A DNA stretch of 64,000 nucleotides from Thermococcus sibiricus MM 739 (GCF_000022545.1 NC_012883.1:1046276-1110275); one strand, 5' to 3'. Positions 17,461 to 63,817 are shown, numbered from the stretch's first letter. The notes: a model not told the origin generated them from the sequence alone. Numbers and translations: made by a program.

Positions 17461-18412
17461 AGCTAATCCCCCTTTCCTTTGCCGTACTTTGGACCTGAAG
17501 CTTAAAATTGCAGGCCTTGCATACTTCCCCTGTTGTAGGTTGGTCACAGATTTTGCATCGATTAAGGTCTCTGTTGGCATAGGCCTTAGCTAGTAATGGG
17601 AACATTTTATCATAACTCCTCAAGATCTGATACTTGGTGCCCGGATGCTTCTCTTCCATTTCATTTATCCAATCCCTGATCTCAGCTCTAAATGCCTCCA
17701 CTGCGTAAGGACACTCGCTGAAATCTACTTCGATGTTATTTAAAATAGCATAAAGCACTATCTCCTTTTCTGGCACTTCTCTAAGAGGCTTTATCCTCGG
17801 CACAAGGCCTTCATGAATAACCTCATAATAGGGGCCAGTTCTTCCCAGCCTAGCCACATCCCCACGCATTACGTTCATAAGGAACATCTGCACTTCATCA
17901 TCTAGATTGTGCCCAACAGCTAGTTTGTCGGCTTCTAAATCTTGAGCTGCATAGTTTATAAGCCATCTCCTCCATACCCCACAATAAGAACAGGCCCCCA
18001 CACGCTCTCGCTTTTCAAAGCTCCCCATTATGCTAACAGTTTCATCCAGAGAGAAGCCAATGTATTCTTTAAATGAATAGATTTTATGCTCAATTCCAAG
18101 TTTCTTTGCATTCCTCTTTGCTATCTCAACACTCTCAGGCCTGTACCCTTCTATTCCCTCATCTATGGTTATTGCGATTATCTCAAAAGGAAACTTCTGG
18201 CTGAGCTTGTGAAGGATGTGGAGAAGAACAACACTATCCTTTCCACCGCTCACTCCTACCGCTATTCTATCTCCTCTCTTGATTAGCCCGTATTTTCTCA
18301 CAGTCTGCTTTACTTTGCTCTCAACCATTTCATTGAAATGTTTATGACAATAAAACTTACCTTCATATCTCGCATGATATACTGCCTCTCTTCCACACTT
18401 CGTGCATTTCAT
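17447..18412 (-). CDS. ttuA: tRNA 2-thiouridine synthetase TtuA/NcsA
   Basis: The product is 321 aa. It has an N-terminal zinc finger (CTKC...C..H), the PP-loop SGGKDS, a middle GACSYCGVWRR whose cysteines help bind the catalytic [4Fe-4S] cluster, and a C-terminal zinc finger (CKICDQPTTGEVCKAC). It adenylates and thiolates U54 (or U34) of tRNA using a ubiquitin-like sulfur carrier, which stabilises tRNA at high temperature. The ATG at 18412 is preferred over 18442 because GAGGCGAGG lies just upstream and homologues begin MKCTKCG. Confidence 0.93.
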   Translation of the reverse strand: MKCTKCGREAVYHARYEGKFYCHKHFNEMVESKVKQTVRKYGLIKRGDRIAVGVSGGKDSVVLLHILHKLSQKFPFEIIAITIDEGIEGYRPESVEIAKRNAKKLGIEHKIYSFKEYIGFSLDETVSIMGSFEKRERVGACSYCGVWRRWLINYAAQDLEADKLAVGHNLDDEVQMFLMNVMRGDVARLGRTGPYYEVIHEGLVPRIKPLREVPEKEIVLYAILNNIEVDFSECPYAVEAFRAEIRDWINEMEEKHPGTKYQILRSYDKMFPLLAKAYANRDLNRCKICDQPTTGEVCKACNFKLQVQSTAKERGISFRTE

Positions 18413-18581
18413 TTTCCTCGCCTCAGTGAAGGGAAAGAACATCCCTTAAAAAGCCTTTCCTTTGAATTCTCTTATCTCTTTTCTGAGAGGCTTGTCGCGA
18501 CCCCATTATAATGGTTCCGATAATAATTTACCTGATCGTGAACACGAACAATAATGAAAAAGAGTTAAAGCTGTTGAAGGG

Positions 18582-18770
18582 TTAAATCTCCTCCAGCTTT
18601 TTCTTTACCTCTTCTGTGTTTTTCCGCGTTTCTTCCAGAGCGTTCTTGAGTCTCTCAATCTCAACCTTGAACTCATTTAGAGTTTTGTTCAGCTGATAGA
18701 AAGCAAACACCAAAACAACGAGGATTATTAAGCCAAGGATTATGCTTATCCATCCGCTTGGAGTTGACAT
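18582..18770 (-). CDS. Small membrane protein with C-terminal coiled coil
   Basis: The product is 62 aa from the ATG at 18770, which has GGGGAGGAG upstream. Upstream ATGs at 18791 and 18797 are also possible, and 18797 overlaps the regulator stop as ATGA. One hydrophobic helix (ISIILGLIILVVLVFAFY) is followed by a heptad-rich charged helix to the end. It is the last gene of the DUF2202 module. The topology suggests a membrane adaptor, but no family is recognised. Confidence 0.7.
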   Translation of the reverse strand: MSTPSGWISIILGLIILVVLVFAFYQLNKTLNEFKVEIERLKNALEETRKNTEEVKKKLEEI

Positions 18771-18793
18771 ATACACTCCTCCCCAGGGCATTT

Positions 18794-19087
18794 TCATCCC
18801 TCCAGATTTACAATCACATCGTTGTCTATAACAAGTCTGAACTGCCTTGCACGGTAGTATTTCTTGGCCCTCGGATCATCCGGCTCAAGCCTAAGTTCAC
18901 TCTCGACGAGGCCGGCATTTTCAAGCTTTTTGAGATGGAGATAAAGGAGCTGTCTTGATATTTCAAGTTCTTTGGCAAGCTCGTAAACGTACCACTCTTT
19001 TTGGCAAAGTAACTTAAGTATCTTAATCCTAACTGGATTAGAAAGTGCCTCGCATATCTTTGCAAGTTCCTCGATGCTCTGAACCAT
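18794..19087 (-). CDS. ArsR-family winged-helix regulator
   Basis: The product is 97 aa. Residues 10-70 form the classic ArsR fold (ALSNPVRIKILKLLCQKEW, then LEISRQLLYLHLKKLENAGLV as recognition helix and turn). There is no Cys-based metal or redox site apart from scattered Cys residues near the N-terminus. A minus-strand CTTTTATCTC upstream may be its own TATA box, so it may be transcribed separately from the DUF2202 genes. It is the obvious candidate to bind the inverted repeat at 21433-21458, which is inference from position only. Confidence 0.85.
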   Translation of the reverse strand: MVQSIEELAKICEALSNPVRIKILKLLCQKEWYVYELAKELEISRQLLYLHLKKLENAGLVESELRLEPDDPRAKKYYRARQFRLVIDNDVIVNLEG

Positions 19088-19147
19088 GATCAACACCGCT
19101 GATTGGGCCTGAAGAAAGTAGGAAAAGGAGAGATAAAAGCTTTCCGG

Positions 19148-19822
19148 TCAGTCCACTATACTTTCGTATTCCTCTTCACTCAATACCTGCGGCGTATAAA
19201 CAACACCATAGTTCTCTCGGAGCAGTCTTGTGAATGCCCGCAGGTGGTTTTCACTCCCCATCCTCAGACTCCCAAATACCGCTTTTATGTCCTCATTATC
19301 TGTTCTTTTGAGCCACTCGTCAAGGTCTTTGATGTCAATTTCTTCTATAAGCGCTCCCACCTTAAGGGCCTCTACTTCGCCTTCGCTCCCTTGGGCAACA
19401 AGCCTTTCATAGAGCTCCTGCATCTCTGTGCTGTTAAACTCCCCGATTCCCATCCCCTCAAGGGGGTCGGTCAGGTTGTACTTCTCTATAAGGCCAAGCA
19501 CCGCATCCATGTGAGTCTGTTCACTCTTCGCTATGTTGTTGAATATCGAAAGGCCGGTCTTGTTGTAGAGTACGAGGTATACGTCCCTTGCGAGCTTCTC
19601 TTCTTCCCTCATGTAGAGGATTGCTTCAATCTCGTCCGGGCTCAGTTCCTGAACGGGGTACGTGGAGACGTCTACACTCGCTCCCTCGCCATAACCTCCA
19701 TCTTCGGGAGGGCCTCTTGTGCTGGAGCCCTCTGTGGTGCTCTCATCAGTACTCGTTATACATCCTGCTCCAACTGTTGCCAGGAGTACCAAGACAACGA
19801 GCAGAAAACTTATCTTTTTCAT
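19148..19822 (-). CDS. DUF2202 ferritin-like lipoprotein
   Basis: The product is 224 aa. The N-terminus is a signal peptide with a lipobox (ATVGAGC), followed by a low-complexity Ser/Thr/Gly/Pro linker to about residue 55. Residues 60-220 form a DUF2202 four-helix domain with the ferritin-like ligand pattern REEEKLARD, EQTHMDAV and ENHLRAF. The family is expected to bind a dinuclear metal site, but its role is unknown. It is probably anchored outside the membrane. Its start overlaps the stop of the DUF4405-like gene by ATGA. GC content is well above neighbouring regions. Confidence 0.88.
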   Translation of the reverse strand: MKKISFLLVVLVLLATVGAGCITSTDESTTEGSSTRGPPEDGGYGEGASVDVSTYPVQELSPDEIEAILYMREEEKLARDVYLVLYNKTGLSIFNNIAKSEQTHMDAVLGLIEKYNLTDPLEGMGIGEFNSTEMQELYERLVAQGSEGEVEALKVGALIEEIDIKDLDEWLKRTDNEDIKAVFGSLRMGSENHLRAFTRLLRENYGVVYTPQVLSEEEYESIVD

Positions 19823-20448
19823 TCACTTTCACCCCGTAGTTCGGTTATAATTTCCTCCAACATGGCCTTGAACTCTTCATGGTCCAGGCCATAATTGTAC
19901 TCAATCTCGGCCAGGGTATCATCGGGAGAGGCTTCTATTCCGTTTTTGCTGAGCTTCTCAATAAGGTCCGTTACTTCCACGTTGAACTCATCGGCGAGCT
20001 GCCGGACGATGTAGTACTTCATCATGGTGCCGGTGATGTAAACGTCCCCCGTGATCTCGGAAGTGTACTCAACGTCGACGGTGGATGTGTCCTCCTCTCC
20101 GCCGTACCACGCGAAAACCGGGTAACCTGCGACGAGGAGGAGTAAAGGGACAAAAACCGCAGCCACAGTCCTGAGTTTGGACTTCCTAAATCCAGATTTT
20201 AGCATTACCAGCATGCTATTGAACCCAATGACAAGGTGAACCATAACCAGCCCTGCCATCGCAAAGCCGAAGTACGTGTGTATCAAATCGAGAGTATCCT
20301 TATCAAATCCCAGAAACGTCCAGCCTATGGTCTCGGCTATTCTCCCGCTAGGTGCGAGGTAGAGGCCGATGCCCGTGAAGAGCTCTGCTACGAAAGTCAC
20401 CACTAGTAGAAGGTCTATAACACCCCTTACGAGAGCCGAAACTTTCAT
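19819..20448 (-). CDS. DUF4405-like membrane cytochrome b domain with external tail
   Basis: The product is 209 aa. It has three membrane helices (about residues 10-31, 55-76, 95-118), then a hydrophilic domain of about 90 residues. H57 and H71 lie in one helix 14 residues apart, as in bis-His heme-b helices, although a full pair of ligands would also need a partner helix. The C-terminal domain (YYIVRQLADEFNVEVTDL) probably faces outside. The ATG at 20448 has AAGGTGAT upstream. It may pass electrons to, or receive them from, the two exported DUF2202 proteins. Confidence 0.7.
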   Translation of the reverse strand: MKVSALVRGVIDLLLVVTFVAELFTGIGLYLAPSGRIAETIGWTFLGFDKDTLDLIHTYFGFAMAGLVMVHLVIGFNSMLVMLKSGFRKSKLRTVAAVFVPLLLLVAGYPVFAWYGGEEDTSTVDVEYTSEITGDVYITGTMMKYYIVRQLADEFNVEVTDLIEKLSKNGIEASPDDTLAEIEYNYGLDHEEFKAMLEEIITELRGESE

Positions 20449-20544
20449 GTGATCACCTTCGGTAGACATTTAACTCTCCAGTCTATCTCCGTATAAAAGT
20501 TCCGCTCCATATAAATCGCCTCCTCATCAAGAAGAAAAGGGAGA

Positions 20545-21417
20545 TCATGGAGACACTCCGACTCCCCTAGTCCCTTTGCCGGAGCCCTTCATCTGGCCCC
20601 AGGCGTGTTTGAAGGCTTGGGCGAGCCCGTCTCCATCAGCGGTTCTGCCCTGTGATCCTGCGTTTCCGCTGCAGTCGCCTGTCCTGCTCCTCATGCCATG
20701 TCCGTTGTCAGCTCTCTCTGTGGCTCTTCCCATGCCACCCATCCCGCGGGTCGGGGCTGAGCTTAGTATCTCATCAACCTGCTCCTGGGGGAGCACCTGG
20801 GCAGTGTAGTCCACACCAAGCCTTTCTAGCTGGCCGACAAAGGCCCTGAGGTGGTTCTCCGAGCCAGCCATGAGGTTGGTGTACACGGTCTTGATGTCCT
20901 CGTTGTCGGTCTGGACTATCCAGTCCTCGAGGTCTTTTATGTCGGTCTCTTCTATCAGTGCACCGACCTTAAGCGCCTCCTCCAGGCTTGCACTTCCCAT
21001 CTCAACAAGCTGGTCGTAAAGGGCCTGAAGCTCCTCGTTCTGGAAGACTCCGACCTGGTCGAGCGTGTCCGGAGCGGTCAGGTTGTACTTCTCTATAAGG
21101 CTAAGCACTGCGTTCATGTGCGTCCCCTCGCTCTCCGCTATGTTGCCGAACACCGGAAGGCTCCACTGCTCGTAGAGCGTCAGATAGACATCCCTTGCGA
21201 GCTTCTCCTCCTCAACCATGTAGAGCAGGCCGTCTATCTCTTCCTGGCTGAGTTCCGCGTAATATGTCGCTAAAGTGCCGTTGAGCATGGGTGCTACAGA
21301 GTTTTGGTCTGCATATGGGCTCTTTCCAGGAGTTCCTTGCCATGCTACTACACTTCCCAGGGTGAACCCTAAGGCAGCCAACATCAATAGGGCGATACCC
21401 CAAATTTTTTTCCTCAT
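20545..21417 (-). CDS. Exported DUF2202 ferritin-like protein with Gly/Arg-rich tail
   Basis: The product is 290 aa. A signal peptide (IWGIALLMLAALGFTLGSVV) is followed by a DUF2202 domain at about 45-215. The domain carries the metal-ligand motifs VEEEKLARD, ESEGTHMNAV and ENHLRAF. The tail (about 220-290) is rich in Gly, Arg, Met and Asp and is likely disordered. It is the first gene of the module. GAGAGGTGATTT precedes the ATG, and the promoter carries a perfect inverted repeat. It is a paralogue of the gene at 19148-19822. GC content is high relative to the window. Confidence 0.88.
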   Translation of the reverse strand: MRKKIWGIALLMLAALGFTLGSVVAWQGTPGKSPYADQNSVAPMLNGTLATYYAELSQEEIDGLLYMVEEEKLARDVYLTLYEQWSLPVFGNIAESEGTHMNAVLSLIEKYNLTAPDTLDQVGVFQNEELQALYDQLVEMGSASLEEALKVGALIEETDIKDLEDWIVQTDNEDIKTVYTNLMAGSENHLRAFVGQLERLGVDYTAQVLPQEQVDEILSSAPTRGMGGMGRATERADNGHGMRSRTGDCSGNAGSQGRTADGDGLAQAFKHAWGQMKGSGKGTRGVGVSP

Positions 21418-21432
21418 GTTAAATCACCTCTC

Positions 21433-21458
21433 CATATGTAATTCTAATATTACATATG
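21433..21458 (-). promoter_or_regulatory. Perfect inverted repeat at the DUF2202 promoter
   Basis: Arms CATATGTAAT (21433-21442) and ATTACATATG (21449-21458) are separated by six bases. On the minus strand a TATA box CTTTATAAACTT lies just upstream at about 21463-21474, so the repeat covers the expected transcription start. This is the usual position for an archaeal repressor. Confidence 0.7.
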
Positions 21459-21504
21459 TATGTAAAGTTTATAAAGTTTTTGGTCAGGCAATTCATGGTA
21501 CTAA

Positions 21505-21669
21505 AATAATAGAGACATCGTTTCCAGAAGCCATTCAACTACATCGGCAGATGATTTACCAAAACCAAGAATTTTGGTGGGCAAAATAGCGGTATTCTCT
21601 CATGAAGATACTTGGAAAAAGTATAAAATCAAATCCTATGAACGCAAGCTTCATTTCCCAAAACATTAA
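21505..21669 (+). pseudogene. Open frame without ATG upstream of the KaiC-like gene; possible remnant
   Basis: The frame is open for 54 codons after a TAA and encodes a protein-like end (KIAVFSHEDTWKKYK, then SYERKLHFPKH). Only TTG or GTG near 21574-21577 could start it. It may be the tail of a deleted gene. The rest of the 21484-21826 spacer is AT-rich, with a likely promoter (TTAAATAAATAAA) near 21784 for the next gene. Confidence 0.3.
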
Positions 21670-21826
21670 CATAACGAATGAACCTTACAATACTCATTTC
21701 TCGTTAAATATCATCATCAAAATCCTAAACCTAACCTTCTACTACTCATTCCCCTTACAGTATAAACTGAAAAATGAAAAAAGCTTAAATAAATAAATCC
21801 ATATTGTTATTTGTATGGTGGTTATC

Positions 21827-22561
21827 ATGGAACTCATAAAAACTAAGATTCCACAACTTGATGAAGCCCTTGGAGGGGGTATCCTAGAAGATAGTATTGT
21901 TTTAATAACATATGACACTTATTCGCAAGGTTGGACACTTGCTTTCGAGATTCTACGAAATCGAATAGAAGATGGAGACTTTGGAGTAATAATAAATTCA
22001 GTTGTTCCTATATCCATGCTCAACTTAGAATTGAAGAGGATTAACTTTGATCTCAATGAAAAAGGAGAAAATGGAGATCTGGGAATTATAGACATTTTTG
22101 CATCATTTTATGGGATAGAATACGAGCAACCATACATTTATTATGAAAATATGGATCAGGAGACTTATCTTCCAAAATTTATGGCTCTTTACAGGCAGAT
22201 GCTAAAAGAGAAAATAAAAGATAGAAGACCCATAGGAATACAGGTAACCGCAGATGGGTTTGCATTTTTATTAGGAGAAGAAAGAGAGCTTAGAACTTTC
22301 CAAAAGAACCTGGCTGAAAAGGAAAATGCCTTAATTCGCGAAAAAAGGAAAAGACCAATAAATATAACCCTCCTCAATAGACACAGAGTATCTCAAAGGT
22401 ACCTATCGTGGCTTTCCCTCTACAGCCAGTACCAAATAGATTTTAACTCACAAGAAAGCCAAATGGAGGAGAAAATGCTCATTAGAAAATCTCCCCTACC
22501 CAGCTTCAAACCAACCAAATTAAATTTCAAGATAGAAAACGGAAAAGTACTCATCACTTAG
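21827..22561 (+). CDS. Degenerate KaiC/RecA-fold protein (DUF257-like)
   Basis: The product is 244 aa. The N-terminus IPQLDEALGGGI is typical of KaiC/RadA-like ATPases, but the P-loop position reads ITYDTYSQGWTLA, without the GKT that binds nucleotide. The C-terminus (KLNFKIENGKVLIT) resembles the end of other Thermococcales KaiC-like proteins, including the DUF257 group. ATP hydrolysis is therefore unlikely, and a structural or regulatory role is more plausible. The ATG at 21827 has GGTGGT upstream. It overlaps the converging gene by 8 bases. Confidence 0.75.
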   Translation: MELIKTKIPQLDEALGGGILEDSIVLITYDTYSQGWTLAFEILRNRIEDGDFGVIINSVVPISMLNLELKRINFDLNEKGENGDLGIIDIFASFYGIEYEQPYIYYENMDQETYLPKFMALYRQMLKEKIKDRRPIGIQVTADGFAFLLGEERELRTFQKNLAEKENALIREKRKRPINITLLNRHRVSQRYLSWLSLYSQYQIDFNSQESQMEEKMLIRKSPLPSFKPTKLNFKIENGKVLIT

Positions 22562-23066
22562 CGAGTTCTAATGCAAGTTTAGCTGCTTCTTTCCCACTTT
22601 TGGTGAAATGGACTTGTACCAGCTTTTTATGATCAAAATACCCATTTGAAGCTAAAAGTTCAAGGCGGTCACTTGGATAGCCCGTATCCGTAACAACAAC
22701 AAGTACCTTTGAGTAATCATAGGCCATAAGGGCCTCTACCATGGTACCAATTCCACCCCCAAGAACAACCAAGACATCAGCAGAGTTAATCATGATTGCA
22801 CTTCTCTCGGCAAAGTCCATACCTGTTTTTATCCTGATTGTATTGAACTCATTTCCTTTTTGTCTTTCTGGGAGTATTCCTACCACTAACCCCCCAAACC
22901 TTGCAAATTCCCTACTTGCTATTTCCATAATACCTCCTCTACCCCCAGTAAGGAGAACCACGGTATCCTTATATTTTGCCAATTCTTTGATAAATTCCTT
23001 TGTCTTTTCTACAGCTTTAGGAAGGGGCTCAGTATCGCTGGAACCAGCAATAGCTATTTGAATCAT
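22554..23066 (-). CDS. LOG-like Rossmann-fold protein (TIGR00725 type)
   Basis: The product is 170 aa. It carries the LOG/lysine-decarboxylase-fold motifs LLTGGRGGIMEIASREF and VVLGGGIGTMVEALMA, close to the PGGxGTxxE nucleotide-binding pattern. Relatives act as phosphoribohydrolases on nucleotide monophosphates or bind nucleotides without known activity. The motif here is GGGIGTMVE, so catalysis is uncertain. It is four bases downstream of the site-2 protease gene on the same strand, so the two form an operon. Confidence 0.88.
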   Translation of the reverse strand: MIQIAIAGSSDTEPLPKAVEKTKEFIKELAKYKDTVVLLTGGRGGIMEIASREFARFGGLVVGILPERQKGNEFNTIRIKTGMDFAERSAIMINSADVLVVLGGGIGTMVEALMAYDYSKVLVVVTDTGYPSDRLELLASNGYFDHKKLVQVHFTKSGKEAAKLALELAK

Positions 23067-60881: not shown

Positions 60882-61574
60882 ATGCTGCTAAAGCTTCCAA
60901 TAATCGAGTGCACTTTTATAAAAAGGCTAAACAGATTTTTAGGAGTAATAGAAGTCAACGGGGAGCTTAAAAAGGCATTGATAACAAACACCGGCAGATT
61001 GGAGGAGTTTATGATCAGAGGGAGAAAGGCGTTTTGCATTCCCAAGCAAGAAGGGAAGACGAACTTCGTCCTAATCGGATTTCTGGAAAATGAAGGAAAA
61101 GGAGCGATTATAGACACAAGAACACAAGCAAAGGCCTTTGAGAGGGCAATAGAGTTGGGTCTAATTGAGTGGCTTAAAGGGTGCAAAATCAAAAAAAGAG
61201 AAGTTAAGGTTGGTAATTCGAGGCTTGATTACCTCTTGGACTGCAATGGCGAGGAAGTGTTTGTGGAAATGAAGAGTGCTGTTCTGAGAGAGGGAGATTA
61301 TGCAATGTATCCCGACTGTCCGAGTTTGAGGGGACAAAAGCATATAAAAGAACTCATACGCCTGAGGGAAAATGGCAAAAGAGCAATGATAGTCTTTATA
61401 GGCGCTCTGCCCGGTGTTAGGAAGTTCAAATCCTATACACAGGGAGATCCTGAGATAGCGAGGCTTCTTAGAGAAGCGGACAAAGTAGGCGTTGAAATCC
61501 ACGCACTGGGCATTTCACTCCTGCCCGATGGGAAGGTCGTCCTTGAGAAGCCGAGCCTTGAAGTTGAACTCTAA
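60882..61574 (+). CDS. sfsA: SfsA family protein
   Basis: The product is 230 aa. The family pattern is visible: FIKRLNRFLGVIEVNGE at the N-terminus (OB-like), then FVEMKSAVLREGDYAMYPDCPSLRG, with the nuclease-like Glu and Lys, and ALGISLLPDGKVVLEKPS. SfsA has a PD-(D/E)XK-like nuclease fold and was first linked to sugar fermentation in E. coli; its archaeal role is open. GGGAGGAATC precedes the ATG. Confidence 0.93.
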   Translation: MLLKLPIIECTFIKRLNRFLGVIEVNGELKKALITNTGRLEEFMIRGRKAFCIPKQEGKTNFVLIGFLENEGKGAIIDTRTQAKAFERAIELGLIEWLKGCKIKKREVKVGNSRLDYLLDCNGEEVFVEMKSAVLREGDYAMYPDCPSLRGQKHIKELIRLRENGKRAMIVFIGALPGVRKFKSYTQGDPEIARLLREADKVGVEIHALGISLLPDGKVVLEKPSLEVEL

Positions 61575-62821
61575 ACCGCCGTCCTGGGGGTCTTGTACCA
61601 AACTTTCTTGGCCCTTCTGGCCTCCCACAGGCCGGCCAGCGAGATAAGTATCCATATCTGGGAGTACGTGTGGTACATGAGCAGCGCGAGGAGCCAACAA
61701 CCGGGGCTCTTTATCTTCCCGTCGTAGAGGCCGGCGAATATCTCCAACAGGAAGGCTAAGTAAACGAAGCCCAAAACAGACCACGTAAACCACGTTACGC
61801 TTCCAGAGGTTAATAAGAGTGCTACAAAGGCCACATCTGCCACTATCACAGCCATTGCCAGGAGATAGTACACCATCAGCGTGAGGAACAGGTCAAAGCG
61901 CAGGCCCCAGCTGGGAATTTCCTTGAAGCGTTTTACGTACTCTTTCACGGTGTGGACGTTTCCTGCCGCCCAGCGCGTCCGCTGTCTGAACCAAACGCGC
62001 AGGCTCTCGGGCTCCTGCTCCCAGGTGACGGCGAGCGGGGTGTAGGCTATCTTTTTGCCCGTTAAGATTATCCTGAATGACAGCTCCAAGTCCTCGGCAA
62101 GGGCCTCTTCGTCCCATCCACCGAGCTCTTCGAGCAGTTCTTTCCTGATAACAAAGTTCGTCCCGGGAAGTATGGCAGTTTTGTAGAATTTGCTCTTTCC
62201 GGCCTGGCCGGCCAGCTGGAAGTAAAGGTATTCCATGCATATGAATCTCGTGAGGATGTTCCTGTTCCAGTTCATAGTCTTGACTTTTCCGGTTACAGCT
62301 GGCGTCTCGTCACTCAGCATCGCCACCAGATCCTTGAGCGCCCCGGGCTCGGGCCTGTTGTCGGCGTCGTATACCGCTATGACCTCACCCTTCGCCAGCT
62401 TTAGGCCGTAGTTCAGGACGTAGCTCTTTCCACTACCCCCGCCCTCAACGCGGATCACTTTGATAAACGGATAGTCCTTAGAGACTTCCTCAGCTATCTT
62501 CGCCGTGTCGTCGGTTGAACCATCGTCTAGAAGGAGAACTTCCAGTTTATCCTTTGGATAGTCAAGGTTTGCCATTGCCCTGAGGGTGTCCCTTATCACC
62601 AGTCCCTCATTTCGGGCCGGGATGAGGATGGTGACGGAAGGAAGCTCCTCCGGAATCTCGGGCCTCTTGAATCGCGAGTTGTACCTGAGCCCAGCTATGG
62701 TCAGGACTATGTAGTAAACGAAAATTGGGTATATCACCGCAGCCGAAAACAGCCAGATATAGCGGAGGACGGATAATATGATATCTACGGCACCGGTTAA
62801 CGATTCCATGCTCCAGCCCAT
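61571..62821 (-). CDS. Processive family 2 glycosyltransferase, membrane-bound
   Basis: The product is 416 aa. The N-terminal helix (about 20-42) is followed by a GT-A domain with DDGSTDDTAK, AVYDADNRPE, LAEDLELSFR and RQRTRWAAG (QxxRW). Three or four helices then follow (about 300-385), as in hyaluronan or cellulose synthase-like enzymes. It adds sugars to a surface polysaccharide or lipid-linked glycan. GC content is much higher than around it. The start could be 62821 or 62809; no clear ribosome binding site is seen. Confidence 0.9.
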   Translation of the reverse strand: MGWSMESLTGAVDIILSVLRYIWLFSAAVIYPIFVYYIVLTIAGLRYNSRFKRPEIPEELPSVTILIPARNEGLVIRDTLRAMANLDYPKDKLEVLLLDDGSTDDTAKIAEEVSKDYPFIKVIRVEGGGSGKSYVLNYGLKLAKGEVIAVYDADNRPEPGALKDLVAMLSDETPAVTGKVKTMNWNRNILTRFICMEYLYFQLAGQAGKSKFYKTAILPGTNFVIRKELLEELGGWDEEALAEDLELSFRIILTGKKIAYTPLAVTWEQEPESLRVWFRQRTRWAAGNVHTVKEYVKRFKEIPSWGLRFDLFLTLMVYYLLAMAVIVADVAFVALLLTSGSVTWFTWSVLGFVYLAFLLEIFAGLYDGKIKSPGCWLLALLMYHTYSQIWILISLAGLWEARRAKKVWYKTPRTAV

Positions 62822-62940
62822 AATTATTACGTTTCGTTTCTTATAAGTCTATCCCCAACGAAGATGTCGTCTTAGAAAATGATGAGCTTGTAATTGAAGT
62901 TTAGCCCAAAGGCTTTTATAACGCTCACCCAATAAAAACT

Positions 62941-62967
62941 CGGGGGTAACACCCCCGTGGAGGTGTT
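62941..62967 (+). promoter_or_regulatory. Hairpin pair at the 5' end of the Toprim-protein mRNA
   Basis: CGGGGGT (62941-62947) and ACCCCCG (62951-62957) can pair with a three-base loop. Alternatively AACACC (62948-62953) can pair with GGTGTT (62962-62967), which would bury the GGAGGTG ribosome binding site. The two structures are mutually exclusive. A TATA box (TTTTATAACG) near 62913 puts the transcript start near 62940. Confidence 0.5.
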
Positions 62968-62971
62968 GGGA

Positions 62972-63817
62972 ATGACTATTGTAGATGTTAGGATTCTGGT
63001 AGAAGGAGCAAGTGATGTAGAAGTTGTAAGTAAAGCCCTTCAAGGCTTAGCTCTTGGTAGTGAGTACAACATAACGATCTCCGCAATAATTCCAACAACG
63101 AACTTAGAAATAGCTAAAAGCGCTGCAGCTGGGGCAGATCTGCTAATAATAGCCACCGACGCGGACAGAGTTGGCAGAGAGTTGGCAGAAAGAATGTTTA
63201 GGGAACTCGGGGAGTTAGTAGGTCAAGTGGAAAGAATGAAAATCCCAATGGGACATGACCTAGAGCATATAGATGTGGAGCTGGTTAGAAAAGAGCTTAA
63301 AAATACCCTAGTAAGGGCGGGACTAAAAAGTCTCCAAGTTCTTCCGGAGTATATGGCACTAAGAAATCAATTATTTGACTTGAAAGGAAAACATGAAATG
63401 TTAATGCAAGAAAATGAAGAGCTCAAGAAGAATTATCAAGAGCTTGAACAGAAATACGGAGAACTCTTAGAGGAATACAGCCAAGTGCTAGAAGAAAACA
63501 ATAGACTCAAAGAATCATTGAAGAAGAGGGCCAATGTATTCAAGTTAACAGATATCTGGAAAGAGTTATTTGGTGAAACTACACCTCCTGATGAAAGGTA
63601 TATTGCAGAAGCTGTGGAAAAGCTAAACCTTGGAGGGAAAATAATAGTTGGACAAGGCCATATATACTCTGAAGATGAGGATCTCATAGTTGAGCTTCTC
63701 AGAATCGTTCATTTAAGCCTAAGTATGGCCAAAACACAAAAGGAAGAACCTCAAGTAGAAGAAGAAAAAACCCCCGAAGAAATCGAAGAACCAGAGATAA
63801 GATTTGAAGACTTTTAA
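62972..63817 (+). CDS. Toprim-domain protein with coiled coil
   Basis: The product is 281 aa. The first 110 residues are a Toprim domain: ILVEGASDVEVVSKAL holds the conserved Glu, and LIIATDADRVGREL holds the DxD. Residues about 135-190 form a long coiled coil, and a smaller domain and acidic tail follow. The family is archaeal and may act with DNA in cleavage, joining or repair. The ATG at 62972 follows GGAGGTG. The xerA gene starts 28 bases later on the same strand. Confidence 0.85.
   Translation: MTIVDVRILVEGASDVEVVSKALQGLALGSEYNITISAIIPTTNLEIAKSAAAGADLLIIATDADRVGRELAERMFRELGELVGQVERMKIPMGHDLEHIDVELVRKELKNTLVRAGLKSLQVLPEYMALRNQLFDLKGKHEMLMQENEELKKNYQELEQKYGELLEEYSQVLEENNRLKESLKKRANVFKLTDIWKELFGETTPPDERYIAEAVEKLNLGGKIIVGQGHIYSEDEDLIVELLRIVHLSLSMAKTQKEEPQVEEEKTPEEIEEPEIRFEDF

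Follow-up and report, generated by a model that had tools for sequence, protein, structure and literature searches.

A five-gene cassette in the genome of Thermococcus sibiricus MM 739 has moved between species very recently, and we read it, with slightly less than even confidence, as a horizontally acquired, repressor-controlled module for electron transfer at the cell surface, in which a FezC-like dimer of a membrane protein (M) would work together with two extracytoplasmic di-metal proteins (D1 and D2). The cassette lies within a stretch of 64,000 nucleotides (NC_012883.1:1046276-1110275; hereafter, the window). The initial annotation of this DNA had proposed a set comprising two exported DUF2202 proteins, a membrane protein, an ArsR regulator and a coiled-coil protein, and an ORF listing combined with Pfam searches recovered exactly these five genes, all on the minus strand. 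The features are as follows, in window coordinates.

20545–21417, minus strand: D1, a secreted DUF2202 ferritin-like protein of 290 aa with a signal peptide and a C-terminal Gly/Met/His/Arg-rich tail (PF09968, 2.5e-60)
19819–20469, minus strand: M, a DUF4405 half-cytochrome-b561-like membrane protein (PF14358, 4.2e-14)
19148–19822, minus strand: D2, a DUF2202 lipoprotein of 224 aa with the lipobox VGAGC (PF09968, 4.9e-57)
18794–19096, minus strand: ArsR-type winged-helix regulator of 100 aa with a GTG start, an ATG at 19087 being possible (HTH_5, 2.6e-14)
18582–18797, minus strand: CC, a 71-aa protein with a single transmembrane segment and a charged helix/coiled coil (ORF and sequence)
21433–21458, no strand: palindromic 26-bp operator CATATGTAA-N8-TTACATATG, the predicted ArsR binding site (motif scan)
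21466–21484, minus strand: BRE/TATA element ACCAAAAACTTTATAAACT of the D1-M-D2 operon, adjoining the operator on its upstream side (sequence; conserved when D1 upstream regions are aligned)
19130–19147, minus strand: second BRE/TATA-like element CCGGAAAGCTTTTATCTC, before ArsR-CC (sequence; a similar element stands upstream of orthologous ArsR genes)
18462–21809, no strand: inserted cassette, approximate extent judged against the sister species, whose ncsA/KaiC-like site is empty (flank alignments)

The genes were said to overlap or lie close together, and M with D2 and CC with ArsR indeed overlap by 4 bp each. The description of the set as GC-rich holds for D1, M and D2 (56.5, 50.2 and 49.8%), which stand far above the 39.7% of the whole window, and hardly for ArsR and CC (43 and 41%). 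A second high-GC stretch of about 50% occurs at 61000–63000. The T. sibiricus genome (a single contig of 1,845,800 bases) contains two DUF2202 genes and one DUF4405 gene, all inside the cassette, and no flavoprotein, FeS donor or quinone enzyme is encoded within the five genes.

How did the cassette come to lie here? In the sister species, ncsA has the KaiC-like gene as its immediate neighbour, and the alignments of the flanks end at 18460–18481 and resume at 21777–21817, marking the cassette as an insertion of about 3.3 kb. In two other species (genomes G077 and G081) the cassette DNA is 99.3–100% identical to that of T. sibiricus, whereas the flanking genes are mostly 73–87% identical (82–84% for ncsA and 73% for the M50 gene); the cassette has therefore moved between species very recently. 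Besides these two genomes, the closest cassette proteins belong to another genus. The tract of identity extends from 18416 to 22114 in G081, and in G077 from before 18300 to 22683, taking in the KaiC-like gene. Because it continues beyond the insertion into the neighbouring DNA, transfer by homologous recombination fits better than site-specific insertion, and we rejected the idea that identical copies inserted independently in three species. In G077, an IS-like element of about 870 bp with TAAACACGCCC ends (L081:8257-9126) separates the cassette from the KaiC-like gene. The movement of the module between species as a unit suggests that it confers a selectable trait.

Among 94 Thermococcaceae genomes, DUF2202 is found in 60, matches to M (some of them weak or fragmentary) in 60 and the cassette ArsR in 61. 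We compared layouts over 60 loci. The module, as first proposed, presupposed that the five genes occur together, and the order D1-M-D2-ArsR-CC is intact in 12 genomes (T. sibiricus, G045, G017, G040, G033, G044, G025, G020, G038, G056, G081 and G077), with variants in many more; the order is conserved between genera. This conservation, together with the empty site in the sister species, excludes chance co-location of the genes. A second layout reads M-CC74-CWB2-like protein-DUF2202-...-ArsR-CC, in which the protein between M and DUF2202 is secreted, is about 395 aa long and matches CWB2 (cell wall binding 2; L093:7075-8259). ArsR-CC is the most constant pair, CC directly following ArsR in nearly all loci. 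Some genomes hold decaying copies, in which M or DUF2202 is interrupted by in-frame stops, and three (G012, G073 and G004) have DUF2202 and ArsR-CC with no recognisable M at the locus, so M is not always needed. Outside the Thermococcales, half-length DUF4405 proteins are found in several lineages of archaea and also in Caldisericum bacteria, where DUF2202 is directly upstream of the half-DUF4405 gene at two loci (L135 and L142). Aldehyde ferredoxin oxidoreductase and aldo-keto reductase genes flank many Thermococcus copies and are absent from the transferred cassette; we treated them as chromosomal neighbours.

The element CATATGTAA-N8-TTACATATG is present in nearly all D1 upstream regions, just after the BRE/TATA element and close to the start codon. 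Over 48 distinct loci, information content reaches 1.96 and 1.88 bits per position in its two arms, compared with 0.16 in the upstream stretch from -45 to -30, a contrast with the flanks that is partly built in, as the 48 sites were picked by fit to the pattern (at most three mismatches), while the genome-wide counts are independent of that choice. The site at 21433–21458 is the only one in the window with up to three mismatches (0.03 expected) and the only one in the whole T. sibiricus genome with up to two. At the latter threshold the motif was found in 62 of the 94 genomes, and a reversed control pattern in one. Motif and cassette ArsR are both present in 59 genomes and both missing in 30, with 5 discordant (Fisher's test, 7.6e-19, relatedness ignored). 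Since three genomes (G015, G031 and G093) retain ArsR and the operator without DUF2202, the motif goes with the regulator and not with the ferritin-like gene. In genomes with the second layout, a copy of the operator accompanies both the M operon and the DUF2202 gene.

The 75 sites listed point to a putative regulon: 42 precede DUF2202, five precede M operons and most of the others precede two conserved genes, neither of which has a Pfam match. One, which bears the operator in many Thermococcus genomes, encodes a protein of about 100–105 aa beside a gcvPB-like gene (L148:3363-3662, with equivalents in L144-L153 and L163-L166). The other encodes a secreted protein of about 150 aa with the N-terminus AYQGVPGPNP and a Met/His-rich stretch (L157:3385-3831, L154:3625-4083, L160 and others), and accompanies the ArsR orthologue in G031, which lacks DUF2202. 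The putative binder of the operator, ArsR, has a recognition helix, SRQLLYLHL, that is invariant in 41 of 41 orthologues; it passes the HTH_5 cut-off and just misses that of HTH_metalloreg (53.5 versus 55 bits). It contains no CxC metal-thiolate motif, which rules out a classic metal-thiolate ArsR sensor, and it has one near-invariant Cys (37 of 41 orthologues). The operator offers a concrete handle on the system, in the form of a defined sequence of 26 bp, one candidate repressor and a limited set of target genes.

D1 and D2 share 50% identity and score 203 and 193 bits against a curated PF09968 cut-off of 22. Both match the solved protein MJ0754 in the PDB, D1 at 2e-58, and the predicted structure of D1, in which the tail is mostly of low confidence, superposes on MJ0754 (3q4r, the Zn2+ form, and 3q4n) with a Foldseek E of 5e-13 and a TMt of 0.95. 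The four-helix domain of MJ0754 (PDB 3q4n/3q4o/3q4q/3q4r) is 54–58% identical, with acidic and His residues common to both; MJ0754 is annotated as hypothetical, whereas D1 and D2 are exported. The initial annotation had described one lipoprotein and one Gly/Arg-rich tail, which correspond to the lipobox of D2 and to the tail of D1; in 31 D1 tails, G, M and H make up 26, 9.3 and 6.8% against 4.6, 3.0 and 1.4% in the domain, and Arg is also abundant. The supposed ferritin-like ligands proved to be conserved, as E60, E69, E71, E97, H100, E156, E157, D162 and H189 are kept in 79 of 79 DUF2202 sequences, and they look like a di-metal carboxylate/His site rather than a heme site. The four-helix di-metal fold is common to D1/D2 and the rubrerythrin/bacterioferritin/Dps superfamily, although fold similarity of D1 to the latter is weak (Foldseek E > 0.04) and D1 and D2 are exported; the next-best fold matches of D1 after MJ0754 include enzymes as well as storage proteins. 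We rejected rubrerythrin proper, because D1 and D2 lack the CxxC pair and thus a rubredoxin-like FeS4 site, and PF02915 gave an E of 0.066 for D2 only. Variants of the domain include tandem DUF2202 domains in single ORFs of about 470–490 aa (L120:4969-6411, with an operator-like site upstream, and L024), and a divergent paralogue (L132:11510-12232) that, lacking the equivalents of Glu97 and Glu156, is possibly without a complete metal site. We found no paper naming DUF2202 or MJ0754 in the open-access literature, and the ferritin-like genes mentioned in stress and iron papers on T. kodakarensis are others only.

M scores 53 bits against a PF14358 cut-off of 26.7, and its C-terminus has an IF2_N-like match (7e-7). 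Its model (pLDDT 84.5) contains three predicted transmembrane helices, within 12–38, 57–96 and 98–123, and a helical C-terminal domain at 147–215; a structure search with this model returned no significant match, the best being a hydrogenase cytochrome b (E 1.6). His64 and His78, numbered from the first Met, lie 14 residues apart on one helix (TM2). The pair is invariant in 35 of 35 homologues and is present in all 14 rows of a distant alignment of bacteria and other archaea. Upstream sequences point to the second Met (20448) as the likely true start, and from there the residues become His57 and His71, the heme-ligand-like pair singled out at the outset. As Lys/Arg precede TM1 and stand between TM2 and TM3, the N-terminus would be inside and the C-terminal domain external; His64 would then lie towards the outer face of the membrane and His78 towards the inner one.

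These features recall the DUF4405/FezC proteins of flavinylated systems and ferrosomes (PMC11334425), which share an H-x13-H helix with M, the likeness of FezC to M being one of description, and which also associate with iron-type proteins. Full-length DUF4405 has six transmembrane helices and four central His, whereas M has three helices, two His and an extra C-terminal domain. FezC is likewise half-size and was modelled as a homodimer whose heme sites are formed by dimerisation, and binding of heme b in vitro was shown for recombinant DUF4405 and FezC proteins (PMC11334425). By analogy with them, we infer that dimeric M is able to hold heme b. The cassette differs from those systems in that it has no ApbE or flavoprotein; the FezB transporter that marks ferrosomes is absent from the five genes, and the partners of M are exported ferritin-like proteins in a host without heme synthesis.

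Where would such heme come from? HemB (PF00490) was found in 0 of 94 Thermococcaceae genomes, T. sibiricus included, and in 11 of 14 well-known genomes searched as a control, Methanocaldococcus among them; for seven Thermococcales, again including T. sibiricus, the listing in PMC3004389 contains neither hem nor ahb genes. The label "heme-b-like" thus stood for the family to which M belongs, but did not extend to M carrying heme in this organism. A cytochrome b5 domain occurs in 19 of the 94 genomes, all lacking HemB and overlapping only partly with the genomes bearing the cassette; T. sibiricus itself has no cytochrome b5 gene. In the three b5 proteins examined (L173/G002, L178/G045 and L182/G028), the axial-His region (HPGG in two, HSGG in one) is carried on a transmembrane protein with an H-x13-H helix, and a fusion of such a type is recorded for T. 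barophilus in PMC5898192. Because M and the cytochrome b5 fusion persist although HemB is absent throughout, any heme in these archaea must, we infer, be scavenged.

We propose the following model. M would be a FezC-like half cytochrome b whose protomers each contribute His64 as outer and His78 as inner ligand, so that a homodimer could hold two scavenged b hemes stacked across the membrane and pass electrons between a cytoplasmic donor and D1/D2. The latter would serve as ferritin-like di-metal partners, D2 anchored by its lipid and D1 soluble with a tail of metal-binding type. ArsR, bound to the palindrome that separates the TATA box from the start, would repress the D1-M-D2 operon until a signal relieved repression. 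Electron exchange between the exported di-metal proteins and cytochrome-like M best explains why their genes are linked in one archaeal operon, stand side by side in Bacteria and come under one operator when split. Against the model count the absence of HemB, the lack of a significant structural match for M, the lack of a flavoprotein, FeS or quinone partner in the cassette, and the genomes in which M or DUF2202 is broken or no M is recognisable at the locus. The most likely use would be external reduction of O2 or peroxide, with iron oxidation or release as a close alternative; we place the former slightly ahead, as a judgement rather than on evidence, because a di-iron reductase depends on a source of electrons and ArsR is no regulator of the Fur/DtxR type.

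The same genes might instead buffer metal or iron at the surface, D1 and D2 binding or mineralising metal, the tail capturing it, ArsR sensing it and electrons from M only releasing iron, as suggested for FezC in ferrosomes. The H, M and G enrichment of the D1 tail, the structure of MJ0754 solved with Zn2+, the relation of DUF4405/FezC to ferrosome iron stores (PMC11334425) and the frequent metal responsiveness of the ArsR family are consistent with this, as is the cadmium induction of three ArsR genes in T. gammatolerans (PMC3407056), none of which has been tied to the cassette orthologue. The regulator's single near-invariant Cys, its lack of CxC and its score below the HTH_metalloreg cut-off argue against it, as do the enzymes among the D1 fold matches, and we regard this explanation as possible but rather unlikely.

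Two further explanations turn on the missing tetrapyrrole pathway. M could be free of heme in the Thermococcales, its histidines serving a non-heme metal or packing and the protein acting as an anchor for the ferritin-like proteins; yet archaea and bacteria alike keep the two histidines without exception at the spacing of heme ligands, homologues have been shown to bind heme b in vitro and D2 has a lipid anchor of its own, which makes this improbable. Less probable still, and quite unlikely in our estimation, is that M and the exported proteins serve to capture heme and keep it in store, with no part in electron transfer. The persistence of heme-protein genes in a host without HemB and the Met/His-rich tail of D1 would accord with such capture, but the conserved DUF2202 residues are of the di-metal type, the cassette contains no transporter and the b5-bearing and cassette-bearing genomes coincide only in part.

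As a gene cluster, the cassette is not new. The arCOG04002 neighbourhood of Thermococci described in 2015 by Makarova et al. (PMC5898192), in the portion devoted to it, comprises DUF4405, two ferritin-like arCOG03957 proteins, ArsR arCOG01679 and the coiled-coil arCOG08354, to which we assign CC by its position in that neighbourhood, and carries the guess "iron-dependent electron transfer". It also lists AOR and NADP-dependent oxidoreductase genes, which are not obligatory parts because the transferred cassette lacks both. The operator, the regulon, the family-wide absence of HemB, the insertion and the recent transfer do not figure in that portion of the paper. Our additions are the operator with its putative regulon, a count of HemB in every genome of the family that we searched, a comparison with FezC-type cytochromes, a parallel in bacteria, and the finding that the cassette is a recently transferred insertion; the operator, the insertion and the transfer were also absent from the first reading of the sequence.

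More tentatively than the electron-transfer reading of the cassette itself, we suggest that heme-auxotrophic hyperthermophilic archaea possess a transferable, ArsR-controlled redox system in which a cytochrome dimer loaded with scavenged heme would feed exported di-iron proteins, and that its regulon, with other proteins, some of them exported, may constitute a distinct extracytoplasmic stress or iron response. Because M, with its heme-type ligands, and some cytochrome b5 domains have been kept without recognisable heme synthesis, this one operon makes the question of whether the Thermococcales use heme, and from where they obtain it, directly testable.
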